A DNA stretch of 64,000 bases, from contig JAKSTC010000001.1 of assembly GCA_024402765.1 (NCBI GenBank), forward strand, positions 67,170-131,169, read 5' to 3'. The translations under genes and the position numbers were made by a program. This document shows positions 26,892 to 49,108 of this stretch, in pieces. The notes under the pieces were generated by a model, which was not told where the DNA came from, made no database searches, and saw only the letters and a program-made list of their open reading frames with translations. The stretch's first letter is position 1. Every line of letters starts with the position of its first letter. This stretch comes from Alphaproteobacteria bacterium. Its GTDB lineage: Bacteria > Pseudomonadota > Alphaproteobacteria > Rs-D84.

Positions 26892-26900
26892 TTCGCACTA
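26889..26900. repeat. Small tetraloop palindrome overlapping the stop codon of tip-variable protein 1
   Basis: TAGT-TCGC-ACTA on the plus strand, 4-bp arms and a 4-base loop, overlapping the stop codon of the minus-strand gene. A similar palindrome sits at the same place in the paralogue (32788-32801). Confidence 0.4.
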
Positions 26901-27641
26901 ATTCCCAACTGACCCGAACATAGCCGAACGAAAGCCCGAGTAGACCCGGAAGCCGTCCCCGCAGTGGTCCGCACAATAGAACGCGCAAGCGGCCGCAGAG
27001 GCGCGGTCGATGTAGAACACCCAACGCGACACAGCCGGAAACGTCATTTTACACCAGCAATACTGTCCCTTATCTGTTTGGTTAAAGTTTTGGTTCGTAG
27101 ATTGTGCATATGTACCAGGTGTGCTATTACACGATGCTATGCCCTTTACTATGCCATAACTAAATGTCACACTCCAGGTTTGGTCTGTTGTCAGGCCGTA
27201 TGTAGCGGTGTTTTTGGTCCATGCACCAGATTCCCCAGTACTATCATTCATAAAGCCGTAATCTGTCCCATTCGGATCTGGATCTATGCATTGGCTAAAA
27301 CCGAGGTAGTATTGTCCGTTCGGGCATTGTGAATGTGGAACAAGTTCAAATACAAAATTGCCTGTATTGCCGTTCCATACTAGGTTATACCGACCTCCAC
27401 TCGGGCCCGTTGGTAGTTTATCCTGTTTTGTTGAATCGTGATAACTGGTTGTTATGTATCCACTATCGTTCGTAAATGAACTTAGGTTTGTGGGTTTGTT
27501 GCTTAAATCATCATATGAACCTGTTTTTGCAACCGCCGGCAAAGAATCAACAACACTGTCCACATATGTCGTTGATGCAATATCGGCATATGATATATTA
27601 CATATCGTTATTAAACCTGATATTATAAATATTCTTTTCAT
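26898..27641 (-). CDS. Secreted tail-fibre-like protein with variable cysteine-scaffolded tip, paralogue 1
   Basis: 247 residues: signal peptide (MKRIFIISGLITICNISYA), then IASTTYVDSVV, a stalk with fibre-type repeats (GSYDDLSNKPT), the shared block GGRYNLVWNGNTGNFVFE, a middle domain with FSQCIDPD, and a C-terminal domain from about 185 (YCWCKMTFP). The last 41 residues begin RWVFY and keep C-x3-C-x3-C and FGSVG with the second copy at 32.8 kb, but most residues between differ. The tip DNA is GC-rich with many NNC codons, unlike the AT-rich surroundings. The gene follows a conserved structured leader. Surface adhesin or receptor-binding tip is inferred; no enzyme motif is seen. Confidence 0.7.
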   Translation of the reverse strand: MKRIFIISGLITICNISYADIASTTYVDSVVDSLPAVAKTGSYDDLSNKPTNLSSFTNDSGYITTSYHDSTKQDKLPTGPSGGRYNLVWNGNTGNFVFELVPHSQCPNGQYYLGFSQCIDPDPNGTDYGFMNDSTGESGAWTKNTATYGLTTDQTWSVTFSYGIVKGIASCNSTPGTYAQSTNQNFNQTDKGQYCWCKMTFPAVSRWVFYIDRASAAACAFYCADHCGDGFRVYSGFRSAMFGSVGN

Positions 27642-27866
27642 TTTCCTTTCGTCCCCCCACAGGTTTTAATCTTTGGTGGTGGCGTATAAATGCGTGGAAA
27701 TACGCCACCAAAAAAACCGCAACATTTGTTAGCGGTTGGAGGTTCAAGACTATAATTTTCGAAAAATAGCGGGTTTATTTAGATATATCACCGCCCTCCA
27801 ACCCACAGTTGGAGATATATTTTTACACCCACACGGGCAACGAAAATTCAGAGGTCTTGACGCCCC
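27642..27866 (-). ncRNA. Structured 5' leader RNA, copy 1 (candidate cis-regulatory RNA)
   Basis: This 225-base element fills the space upstream of tip-variable protein 1, up to the AAAGGAAA ribosome-binding site. Helices in window coordinates: P1 27744-27750/27854-27860; P2 27754-27761/27841-27848; P3 hairpin 27827-27838; P4 27796-27802/27808-27814; P5 27769-27772/27791-27794; P6 27715-27720/27732-27737; P7 27677-27686/27701-27710. P2, P3, P5, P6 and the inner part of P6 differ in sequence from the copy at 33.6 kb yet stay paired. A second possible helix, 27734-27742 with 27795-27803 (9 bp), competes with P4 and P6. It matches no riboswitch class that I recognise. Confidence 0.75.
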
Positions 27867-27964
27867 AACAACATCTTCATGCTGTCAAACAATAGGTTAA
27901 ACAAAAAAACATTTTGTTTCAATATAAAAATATCTTTACATATACGCGCATCGGGTATAAATTT

Positions 27965-32787: not shown

Positions 32788-32801
32788 CAATACTATTATT
32801 G
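32788..32801. repeat. Small tetraloop palindrome overlapping the stop codon of tip-variable protein 2
   Basis: CAATA-CTAT-TATTG, 5-bp arms and 4-base loop, overlapping the stop codon of the minus-strand gene, in the same place as the palindrome of paralogue 1. Confidence 0.4.
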
Positions 32802-33602
32802 ACCAACCGACCCAAAAATGCTCGACCGGAAATCGGAAGAGCTCCGTACGGCGCCAAAGCAGCCGGAAACACAAAGGTACGCGCAACTGTCGTCGAAGCT
32901 GTCGTAGAACACCCAACGCGAAGCAGCCGGACTTGTTATCTTGCACCAGCAATACCCGCCCTCACTACTCTGGCTAAATTCTTCAGTGGTGGTTTCACCC
33001 ATTGTACTACCAGGTGTGCTATTGCATGATGCTATACCTGTTACTTTATCACCAGTATATAATGTCGTACCCCATGTCCCGTTTTCTGTTAAGCCATAGG
33101 CGTCTGCTGCGTATGATGTACCATTATGTTTTATATAACCATATGATGTGCCATTTTGACTCACGTCTATGCACTGACTAAAGCCGATGTCGTATGTCCC
33201 AGATGGACATTGCAATGGTTCACGTGGCATTTCTTTAAACATAAACTGACCCGTTTCGCCGTTCCACACTAAATTATACTTTTTGCCGTCGGTTGGACCC
33301 GTAGGGATGTTTGGTATTGTTGGTTTGTTTGACAAATCGTTATATGAACCCGATGTTGCAACTGTCGCCAATGTGGGTTTGCCAGATAAATCAGCATATG
33401 CACCTGATGTTGCGACCGTTGATAATGATGATGGTTGAACCGCCGTTGCGCCCAATCCCGCACCAGTGCGAATCGTCGCCAGGTCGGAAATACTGTCCTG
33501 CTTTGTTGCAACAACACTATCCACATAGCCCACTGATGCAATATCTGCGTATGATGTATTACATATCGTTATTAAGCATAAAATCAAAAATATTCTTTTC
33601 AT
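32796..33602 (-). CDS. Secreted tail-fibre-like protein with variable cysteine-scaffolded tip, paralogue 2
   Basis: 268 residues from the ATG at 33602 (AAAGGAA upstream); the longer frame would translate the leader RNA. Signal peptide MKRIFLILCLITICNTSYA, then IASVGYVDSVV, a longer stalk than paralogue 1 with two fibre-type repeats (GAYADLSGKPT and GSYNDLSNKPT), the shared GKKYNLVWNGETGQFMF block, IASCNSTPG, YCWCKIT, and a 39-residue tip starting RWVFY. The tip keeps C-x3-C-x3-C and FGSVG but is two residues shorter than in paralogue 1 and differs at most other positions. The stalk repeats resemble phage tail-fibre sequences. Function unknown; surface recognition is inferred. Confidence 0.7.
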   Translation of the reverse strand: MKRIFLILCLITICNTSYADIASVGYVDSVVATKQDSISDLATIRTGAGLGATAVQPSSLSTVATSGAYADLSGKPTLATVATSGSYNDLSNKPTIPNIPTGPTDGKKYNLVWNGETGQFMFKEMPREPLQCPSGTYDIGFSQCIDVSQNGTSYGYIKHNGTSYAADAYGLTENGTWGTTLYTGDKVTGIASCNSTPGSTMGETTTEEFSQSSEGGYCWCKITSPAASRWVFYDSFDDSCAYLCVSGCFGAVRSSSDFRSSIFGSVGQ

Positions 33603-33827
33603 TTCCTTTCGTCCCCCCGGTTTTAATCCTTGGTGGTGGCGTAGAAATGCGTGGAAATACGCCACCAAAAAAACCACCGATTTGTGTCGAGTGGTTGGAG
33701 GTTCAAGACTATAATTTGAGAAAAATAGTGGGTTTATTCAGATATATCACCACCCTCCAACCGAAGTTGGAGATTTTTTACGTCCGGCACAAAACGGACA
33801 ACTCAAATTTACGGGTCTTGACACCCC
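33603..33827 (-). ncRNA. Structured 5' leader RNA, copy 2 (candidate cis-regulatory RNA)
   Basis: 225 bases, the same length as copy 1. P1 33703-33709/33815-33821; P2 33713-33720/33802-33809; P3 33782-33786/33795-33799; P4 33755-33761/33766-33772; P5 33728-33731/33750-33753; P6 33672-33677/33691-33696; P7 33634-33643/33658-33667. On the gene strand P4 is capped by UUCG between C and G, the very stable RNA tetraloop. The 3' end (GGGGGGACGAAAGGA) is identical to copy 1 and includes the ribosome-binding site. Beyond the element, 33828-33906 holds only a 6-bp hairpin (33829-33847 area) before mutL. Confidence 0.75.
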
Positions 33828-33906
33828 ATTACGGTAACCCACCGTAACAACCTTATCTTACTATATTTATGTTTTTTAAGTCCAGGGAAAAATACATTAA
33901 AAATTT

Positions 33907-47420: not shown

Positions 47421-48272
47421 ATGCTTATGTTAGGCAACAAACGATTGTTTTTATTTGCTGGATACGATAATGATAACATCATAGACGATGCATTGGTATA
47501 TTATGTTCGTGCGCTATCTATGATTGGCGATGTAATTTTTATTGGCGATTCTGATTTTTCAGGTAAAGAATTAAATAAAATCAAACCATACACGATTTAT
47601 GCCGCTGGGAAACGTCACAGCGAATATGATTTTGGTTCATATAAACGCGCATACCAATATGCAGATGATAAAAAACTATTTTCTAAATATGATTACATCT
47701 ATATGGTAAATGATTCTGTTTACGGTCCATTATTTGATTTGGAATCAACCCTACAAAAAATAGAATCCGCTGATACAGATGTGTTTGGCCTGGTCCAAAG
47801 CAAACATAAAACATATGCACCAATTGAATCTTGGTTTATTGGCATGCGCACTAAAATCACCAAAACCAAATGGTTTAAGACTTTTATAAACTCTATAACT
47901 CAACAGAAATTCAAGACAGACGTGACTATATTATACGAAAACGGCTTTACCGATTTATTAATTAAACATAATGTATCTTGGCATTGTATGATAACTGTTC
48001 ATGGGCGCGATACTTATAACCGTATAAAAAAACTATTTAAAGCGGGCTGTCCTTTTATAAAAAAATCTGCATTTACGCGTCACAACGGTGCGCTGGGTCG
48101 TCAGATTTTATATGTGTTAAAAAGAACAAACGCACGCGATGTAATTTTATCAAGTGCCAATCGTATATATGGAATAAAATATATTGATTGGTTATTAACA
48201 AACAACCCTATAAAAATTTTATATAGAAATATTACATACGGAATAACCAAACTAAGAAATGGTGGAATATGA
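47421..48272 (+). CDS. RgpF-like rhamnan-synthesis/glycosyltransferase protein
   Basis: About 283 residues from the ATG at 47421. Other starts are a TTG at 47391 and an ATG at 47427; none has a strong ribosome-binding site. Family features are FLFAGYDNDNIIDD, a second part ALVYYVRAL, EYDFGSYKRAY and MVNDSVYGPLFD, characteristic of the rhamnan synthesis protein F group. The stop overlaps the next ATG (ATGA). It is transcribed divergently from the GT6 gene. Confidence 0.75.
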   Translation: MLMLGNKRLFLFAGYDNDNIIDDALVYYVRALSMIGDVIFIGDSDFSGKELNKIKPYTIYAAGKRHSEYDFGSYKRAYQYADDKKLFSKYDYIYMVNDSVYGPLFDLESTLQKIESADTDVFGLVQSKHKTYAPIESWFIGMRTKITKTKWFKTFINSITQQKFKTDVTILYENGFTDLLIKHNVSWHCMITVHGRDTYNRIKKLFKAGCPFIKKSAFTRHNGALGRQILYVLKRTNARDVILSSANRIYGIKYIDWLLTNNPIKILYRNITYGITKLRNGGI

Positions 48273-49108
48273 AAAAAGAAAATAAAAAGATTGCGGTTAT
48301 AACAATGGCGCGTGGCGATGAATTCTTTTTGCGTCGTTGGATTGCATATTATGGAAAAAATTTTGGCACCGAAAACCTTTATATTATTCTGGATGGAATT
48401 GACCAAAAAAAGCCCGCAAACGCTGGTCGCGCACACATTACAAAATTACCACACACAGACATGTCTCGGCATATCGGCGACAAATACAGAATTGGAAAAT
48501 TAAACGAACTTGCACACAAACTATTAAAAACATATGACATTGTAATTGGTTGTGATAGTGATGAATTTCTAATTGTTGATCCAAAGACACACCAAACATT
48601 ATCTGAATATTTATCAAACAAAAAAATTAAAAACACTCTATCGGGATTAGGGTTGGATGTTGGTCAAAATATGAAAACAGAATCTGCCCTGGACACAGAT
48701 GCCCCATTATTGGAACAACGTGGATATGCCCTGCTCTCTACCCGTTATACAAAGCCGGTTGTAATAAACAAACCTGTATTTTGGGGAAGTGGTTTTCACA
48801 GCATCAAGCATCATAATTTTCATATAGATAAAAACTTATATTTATTTCATTTCGGATCAGTCGATATGAATATGCTGATTAAAAAGGCACAAAAACGCGG
48901 ACCTGATTGGTTAAACCATTTAAAGCGTCGTGGCAACGGAACAATAAATGCTATTACTAACAAAAAACCAAAATCTGAGAAATGGTTAAAGATAGCAAGA
49001 ATTTTACAAACCTATCTGCGTCCGATATACGCCCCACGAAAACCAGCAATGTTGGGATTACAGATTGTTGTAAACATACCGAAACGATTTAAGAAATCTG
49101 GGATATAA
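48269..49108 (+). CDS. Glycosyltransferase family 2-type protein (PF13704-like)
   Basis: 279 residues opening with IAVITMARGDEFFLRRWIAYY, then YIILDGIDQ and CDSDEFLIVDP, a DxD-like centre. This matches the short GT2-related family found in polysaccharide loci. The end contains IPKRFKKSGI, another occurrence of the IP-plus-basic motif. Its last 20 bases overlap the end of the convergent GT2 gene on the other strand. Confidence 0.75.
   Translation: MKKENKKIAVITMARGDEFFLRRWIAYYGKNFGTENLYIILDGIDQKKPANAGRAHITKLPHTDMSRHIGDKYRIGKLNELAHKLLKTYDIVIGCDSDEFLIVDPKTHQTLSEYLSNKKIKNTLSGLGLDVGQNMKTESALDTDAPLLEQRGYALLSTRYTKPVVINKPVFWGSGFHSIKHHNFHIDKNLYLFHFGSVDMNMLIKKAQKRGPDWLNHLKRRGNGTINAITNKKPKSEKWLKIARILQTYLRPIYAPRKPAMLGLQIVVNIPKRFKKSGI

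Follow-up and report, generated by a model that had tools for sequence, protein, structure and literature searches.

A widespread family of C4/sRNA-Xcc1-type leader RNAs, probably transcription attenuators, in gut Alphaproteobacteria with reduced genomes

The window (the whole stretch of alphaproteobacterial DNA that was analysed, 64,000 nucleotides long) contains two stretches of 225 nt, at 27642-27866 and 33603-33827, which had been described in an earlier note as copies of a structured 5' leader RNA. Both were found as described: the whole leaders align (81-94% in ungapped blocks), both are on the minus strand, each is located immediately 5' of one of two paralogous secreted-protein genes, and both fold more stably than shuffled sequence (z -3.2 and -2.5). 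The helices named in the note exist, and compensatory changes preserve their pairing across the two copies. It should be noted, however, that the helix AACCGC/GCGGTT, there called P6 (a name used below for a different hairpin), is real but is the stem of an intrinsic terminator, with its T7. Similarly, the 225-nt unit is present but is composed of two modules, namely a structured part of about 165 nt, which is found genus-wide, and the last 60 nt or so, which are separate. The transcript probably starts about 20-25 nt upstream of 27866, and includes an additional 5' hairpin. From 5' to 3', the order is hairpin, P0 with a1 (general form across copies GGGG..CCYC), b1, P3, P4, P5, P6 with b', a', a third strand (CCUCCAACC), terminator with U-run, ribosome binding site (RBS) and start codon (Table 1).

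Table 1. Parts of the two leaders and the genes that follow them, each leader given in the direction of its transcript; positions are those of the window.
Feature	Position	Strand	Basis
Copy 1, 5' hairpin, start of the RNA (probable)	27867..27886	-	MFE fold; also upstream of other copies
Copy 1, P0 hairpin GGGG-CGUCAAGA-CCUC, a1 (UCAAGAC) in loop	27851..27866	-	pair counts
Copy 1, b1 strand AAUUUUCG, partner b' at 27754-27761	27841..27848	-	own-versus-swapped pairing test
Copy 1, P3 variable hairpin	27827..27838	-	MFE fold
Copy 1, P4 hairpin CUCCAAC/GUUGGAG, competitor of the outer (C4-type) helix	27796..27814	-	triple covariation
Copy 1, P5 hairpin, conserved loop GAUAUAUCUAAAUAA	27769..27794	-	RF02221 alignment; column conservation
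Copy 1, P6 hairpin CUAU..AUAG, loop with b' CGAAAAUU (27754-27761)	27750..27769	-	pair counts
Copy 1, a' strand GUCUUGA, partner a1 in P0 loop	27744..27750	-	pair counts
Copy 1, third strand CCUCCAACC, outer-helix partner GGUUGGAGG (27795-27803)	27734..27742	-	covariation
Copy 1, intrinsic terminator AACCGC/GCGGUU + U7	27710..27737	-	sequence; T-run; covariation
Copy 1, separate hairpin GGUGGCGUA..UACGCCACC	27678..27709	-	common to 5'UTRs of this genome's gene family
Copy 1, downstream gene: secreted protein, signal peptide, Cys-rich C-terminal domain (CWCK..RWVFY)	26898..27641	-	
Copy 2, 5' hairpin	33828..33848	-	fold
Copy 2, P0 hairpin, a1 UCAAGAC	33812..33827	-	pair counts; fold
Copy 2, b1 AAUUUGAG, partner b' CUCAAAUU (33713-33720)	33802..33809	-	own-versus-swapped pairing test
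Copy 2, P4 hairpin	33755..33772	-	triple covariation; fold
Copy 2, a' GUCUUGA	33703..33709	-	pair counts; fold
Copy 2, third strand CCUCCAACC	33693..33701	-	covariation
Copy 2, intrinsic terminator AACCAC/GUGGUU + U-run	33666..33696	-	sequence; covariation; fold
Copy 2, downstream gene: paralogous secreted protein	32796..33602	-	

The last 60 nt or so before the start codon consist of the hairpin GGTGGCGTA..TACGCCACC and the RBS, and in the gene family of this genome they also occur without the structured module. The hairpin GGTGGCGTATTTCCACGCATTTATACGCCACC plus GGGGGGACGAAAGGAAATG (27678-27709 and 33634-33665) is a nearly invariant second 5'UTR module, found with or without the C4-type RNA. 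The product of the gene behind copy 1 had no match in Pfam. Its Cys-rich C-terminal domain, with the pattern YCWCK..P..SRWVFY..C...C...C..FRS..F.SVG, which is shared with the product of the gene behind copy 2 and with proteins at two other loci (L116 and L084), has no Pfam family, and short segments close to the C terminus of the secreted paralogues are strongly variable.

The leader is not limited to the two genes named in the earlier note. By plain DNA similarity, 21 places in the same genome match, and 16 of 40 neighbouring genomes contain relatives. A covariance model (R1) built from 24 copies matched 108 of 116 genomes in the genus and 177 of 190 in the order, with at least 25 copies in some of them. 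Elsewhere in the Alphaproteobacteria, R1 matches are rare (24 out of a class-wide sample of 385 genomes), and a sample of the phylum gave matches in just two genomes, both from the genus itself, and none beyond the class. Named records among the carriers point to Candidatus Enterousia and comparable uncultured Alphaproteobacteria of the gut, whose genomes measure about 0.9 Mb. The original observation is therefore right, and larger than reported: the window leader belongs to a family of leader RNAs with hundreds of members. Three IMG/VR contigs classed as viral (L206, L207 and L208) also have the leader, before host-like genes such as an ABC transporter in L207 and a secreted protein in L206; they represent either carriage by prophages or misclassified host DNA.

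Selection on RNA structure, which had been proposed from two copies, is strongly supported in many, both by pair counts and by the comparison of own with swapped pairing partners. Over 119 aligned copies, the four helices P0, a1:a', P6 and terminator show standard pairs in 96.2% of cells, against 80.6% after shuffling. Double-sided changes number 357, where shuffling gives 103.5 and none of 500 shuffles equals the observed value; pairing drops to about 35-52% when the columns are slid by one to three. Taken singly, the a1:a' helix is paired in 99.1% of cells, with double changes at every pair, P6 in 98.9% and P0 in 86.9%, with double changes in four of four pairs. The P0 pairs provide an independent check, because P0 is not in the model structure used for fitting the alignment, and the b1:b' pairing likewise is not part of the alignment model.

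The a and b strands pair in a copy-specific way. The pairing score of b' with b1 is 16.7 within the same copy and 9.1 when partners are swapped between copies, and that of a' with a1 is 16.3 and 8.4, respectively, while the crossed controls (a' with b1, b' with a1) showed no difference between own and other partners. The b helix is copy-specific in 135 of 156 copies, which hold 124 distinct b' strings. Among the 15 copies parsed in the genome of the window, cross-pairing is rare (8 and 12 of 210 off-diagonal combinations), which fits self-specific control. Since a1:a' crosses P0 and b1:b' crosses P6, the RNA would be pseudoknotted if all these helices form together. Compensatory changes in nearly every helix, together with copy-specific pairing, require continuing selection. 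A recent mobile repeat was considered as an explanation and rejected on the covariation.

A Shine-Dalgarno sequence and an ORF follow on the same strand within 160 nt in 143 of 184 copies, at a median distance of 20 nt from the RNA, while the other 41 copies have no such ORF within this distance. Signal-peptide-like products are encoded by 80 of the 143 ORFs (56%), compared with 24.7% of background ORFs; the Cys-rich pattern of the window proteins was recognized in 20 downstream products, and an HTH-type pattern in at least 18 small ones. The leader is therefore not specific to a single gene family, such as the tip-variable secreted-protein genes to which the note had tied it, and the downstream genes have no common pathway and no evident role in phage immunity. 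A TATAAT-like box (at most one mismatch) is present at the expected upstream place in 87.5% of the copies, as opposed to 23.7% of random windows. Shorter, lower-scoring copies (L185, L178, L175, L186, L145, L142 and others) precede small XRE/HTH_31 proteins with the pattern VDAKYFG..LR.AR.., which suggests that this subgroup forms a regulatory lineage of its own within the leader family. Moreover, two or three C4-type RNAs are found close together on the same strand at some loci (L119 2332-2998, L135 5558-6130, L143 6173-6504, L144 211-541, L110 2776-3117).

This genomic setting bears on two alternative explanations. The copies might be stand-alone, trans-acting small RNAs with their 3' ends at the terminator, and the downstream genes merely neighbours. 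Such a reading would account for the promoter-like box and the terminator that each RNA appears to possess, for the copies that are in tandem or have no ORF in the next 160 nt, and for the description of the related sRNA-Xcc1 as a small RNA of this kind, an 88-nt transcript detected by Northern blot and RACE (PMC2996969). We nevertheless regard it as unlikely, considering that most copies are so closely followed by a same-strand ORF, that secreted products are enriched among these ORFs, and that the pairing partners lie inside the same RNA. Alternatively, the leader might be a remnant or a spreading mobile element, which has inherited its RNA structure from a phage and has no present function. 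While relatives in phage-like and integron settings (PMC12444791), the high copy number and the tandem copies could be understood in this way, the compensatory changes, the copy-specific pairing and the strong placement of the copies before gene starts make this explanation highly improbable.

In the comparison with Rfam 15 at the gathering score, a tRNA was the sole match in the window, and the leader stretch gave weak, chance-level matches only. A known riboswitch class was thus rejected for want of an Rfam match. The statement in the note that the leader belongs to no known class holds insofar as the window copies fall below every Rfam cut-off, including the gathering threshold of 53 bits for sRNA-Xcc1 (RF02221), but the RNA is recognizably of the C4/sRNA-Xcc1 kind. 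The outer helix of the leader, P5 with its (A)AUA..GAAUAA loop and the P6 hairpin all fit the sRNA-Xcc1 consensus, the P5 loop being GAAUAUA..GAAUAA in the family and AUACAAUA..GAAUAA in sRNA-Xcc1, and a sibling copy (L044) matched the full RF02221 model with 36.2 bits (E 5.9e-5), with outer helix, P5 loop and P6 aligned. The best RF02221 matches in the same genome are L045 (1501-1592, 41.2 bits) and L046 (1501-1591, 38 bits); the former is matched weakly by R1 (25.6 bits) and the latter not at all. Because L045 has upstream a1/b1-like strands, it may represent a second subtype. Elsewhere in the genus, another two loci score above the RF02221 cut-off (57.8 and 55.5 bits).

The sRNA-Xcc1 loci of other Proteobacteria have the same 5' half as the leader (a hairpin with a1, then b1), located outside the Rfam model, and many of them have second copies of both strands (a2/b2) by the RBS of the next ORF. 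As judged from these sequences, RF02221 appears to be the 3' half only of a larger C4-type element. The ORFs that follow include those for Bro-N, KilA-N, P22_AR_N, Phage_pRha and SymE proteins. The sRNA-Xcc1 loci therefore differ from the window leader in that many carry a2/b2 near the RBS and precede genes of phage antirepressor types or symE. In the series L209-L238 (about 1370-1700 in each locus), the a1 hairpin, b1, a GC-rich hairpin with T-run and the RBS-side a2/b2 were observed beyond the RF02221 model. Among the open-access articles searched, the sole one that contains both sRNA-Xcc1 and 'C4 antisense' treats them as separate genes, so that the link may be new. Since sRNA-Xcc1 is integron-borne, an integron attC site was also considered; it was rejected because the order of the inverted repeat (GTTRRR..YYYAAC) is opposite to that of attC and the copies are dispersed before genes.

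The reference for C4 is the immI region of phage P1, annotated with a1 (48255-48261), b1 (48269-48276), c4 (48343-48419), a2 (48423-48429) and b2 (48452-48459), followed by icd and ant. The Rfam models for C4, c4-a1b1 and isrK all match it, the isrK model with 35 bits on the a1/b1 region. Like the C4 RNAs of phages P1 and P7 (RF01695; RF03163 for c4-a1b1; clan CL00128), the leader has a 5' hairpin, an a1 hairpin, b1, and a core with outer helix, inner hairpin, b' loop and a', and the 5' hairpin of copy 1 corresponds in position to the hairpin that precedes a1 in P1. The pair counts and the covariation showed a core closed by the outer helix, with b' in a hairpin loop and an a' strand, and the upstream a1 and b1 are complementary to a' and b'. 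However, downstream a2/b2 strands at the RBS are absent from the Enterousia type (mean z 0.13 and 0.06 in 156 copies), and the leader has a terminator instead. RF01695 had no match in the window, nor in any of 39 genomes of the genus at E<=0.01, although the control genomes were likewise without a match. The a2/b2 targets are what makes C4 an antisense repressor, the known mode of which is RNA-RNA pairing. Further differences from C4 are the secreted or HTH genes downstream, in place of the antirepressor operon whose translation the processed C4 RNA represses, and the many copies per chromosome. The leader is a new variant within the C4/sRNA-Xcc1 RNAs, and its description in the note as belonging to no known class has to be amended accordingly.

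Three other RNAs deserve comparison. The CI antisense RNA of satellite phage P4, set beside the leader by its description and not by sequence, also derives from its own leader and has a complementary sequence upstream, and it works by transcription termination (PMC4825925), but it has a second downstream target and gets processed. IsrK of the Salmonella prophage Gifsy-1 (RF01394) is, like the window leader, a terminator-bearing 5' part, and yields a short RNA and a read-through mRNA from one promoter (PMC4825925); it differs in acting on the translation of an antirepressor-like gene, and its model matches the window copy weakly (13 bits). The Group 1 sRNAs of Acinetobacter baumannii are multi-copy, chromosomal and C4-like, with a variable a' loop, but part of the published account describes them as phage-derived and seemingly processed from longer transcripts, rather than as terminator-controlled leaders of secreted-protein genes (PMC5320573).

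In each of 19 diverse copies, the outer helix consists of 8-11 bp between the third strand and the 3' strand of P4. In sequence variants (e.g. CUCCUGA, CUUCCUGCC, CUUCCGGUC), third strand and partner co-vary, and the 5' strand of P4 follows in most copies. Because the third strand gives the terminator the first nucleotides of its 5' arm, and its partner is also part of P4, the outer helix and the combination of P4 and terminator are mutually exclusive, at least partly; the overlap with the terminator is just 2-6 nt in the 19 copies (4 nt in copy 1), so that this exclusion may be partial. A T-run of at least four follows the terminator stem in 173 of 184 copies. For both window copies, a nested energy model, in which pseudoknots are not scored, places the state with P4, a1:a', b1:b' and terminator about 15 kcal/mol below that with the outer helix. 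An equivalent of the P4 competitor, of 10 bp, is present in phage P1. The P4 competitor was rejected as a feature of the whole superclass, as it was unsupported at the sRNA-Xcc1 loci (own 15.9 versus swapped 15.7) and is not general there.

Competing terminator and antiterminator helices, albeit with partial overlap, are also what would be expected of a riboswitch, in which the pseudoknotted core and the conserved P5 loop would bind a small molecule or a protein and thereby choose between P4 with terminator and the outer helix. The P5 loop is indeed both conserved and unpaired, and the pseudoknots and the many copies per genome would agree with such a function. On the other hand, the a1/a' and b1/b' strands vary freely among copies, and so are better suited to specificity tags than to a ligand pocket; sRNA-Xcc1, too, has the conserved loop, and its loci are laid out with a1/b1 and a2/b2 like those of C4, which is known to work by RNA-RNA pairing; and a common pathway is lacking among the downstream genes. 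A riboswitch therefore appears improbable, slightly more so than stand-alone small RNAs.

The reading we prefer, to which we assign a probability of roughly 60% on the basis of sequence analysis, is that a chromosomal RNA of the C4/sRNA-Xcc1 kind has here become a transcription attenuator, which probably acts as a self-specific on/off switch. By default, a1:a' and b1:b' would pair within one transcript while P4 keeps the core open, so that the terminator would form and a short RNA be released. If a1 and b1 were engaged elsewhere, the outer helix could close the core and weaken the terminator, and the gene would be transcribed. Candidate occupants of a1 and b1 are a protein, a stalled ribosome, or, following the example of phages P1 and P4, an RNA with the same specificity. 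By analogy with P1 C4 and P4 CI, the natural trigger could be an RNA with matching a' and b', possibly the short RNA from the same locus. The direction of the switch could be reversed, and its trigger could also be a protein or a ligand. As every locus has its own a/b code, control should be self-specific.

A broader and more tentative proposal, to which we give clearly less than even weight, is that in small gut Alphaproteobacteria an antisense RNA of phage immunity has been domesticated and now provides self-specific attenuators throughout the genome, with an individual a/b code at each of five to at least 25 loci per genome of about 0.9 Mb, where the terminated short RNA would set the read-through at its own locus. 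If this is true, surface proteins and HTH regulators could switch independently of one another.

The leader is an abundant, previously undescribed RNA of gut bacteria with reduced genomes, which is here connected with the C4 RNAs that serve phage immunity. The results also suggest that sRNA-Xcc1 is not a free-standing small RNA, but the 3' half of a C4-type cis element located before phage antirepressor and symE genes. The family also offers a case, amenable to testing, in which RNA-RNA specificity of phage type would have been turned to chromosomal gene control, and its hundreds of natural code pairs are material on how RNA specificities diverge.
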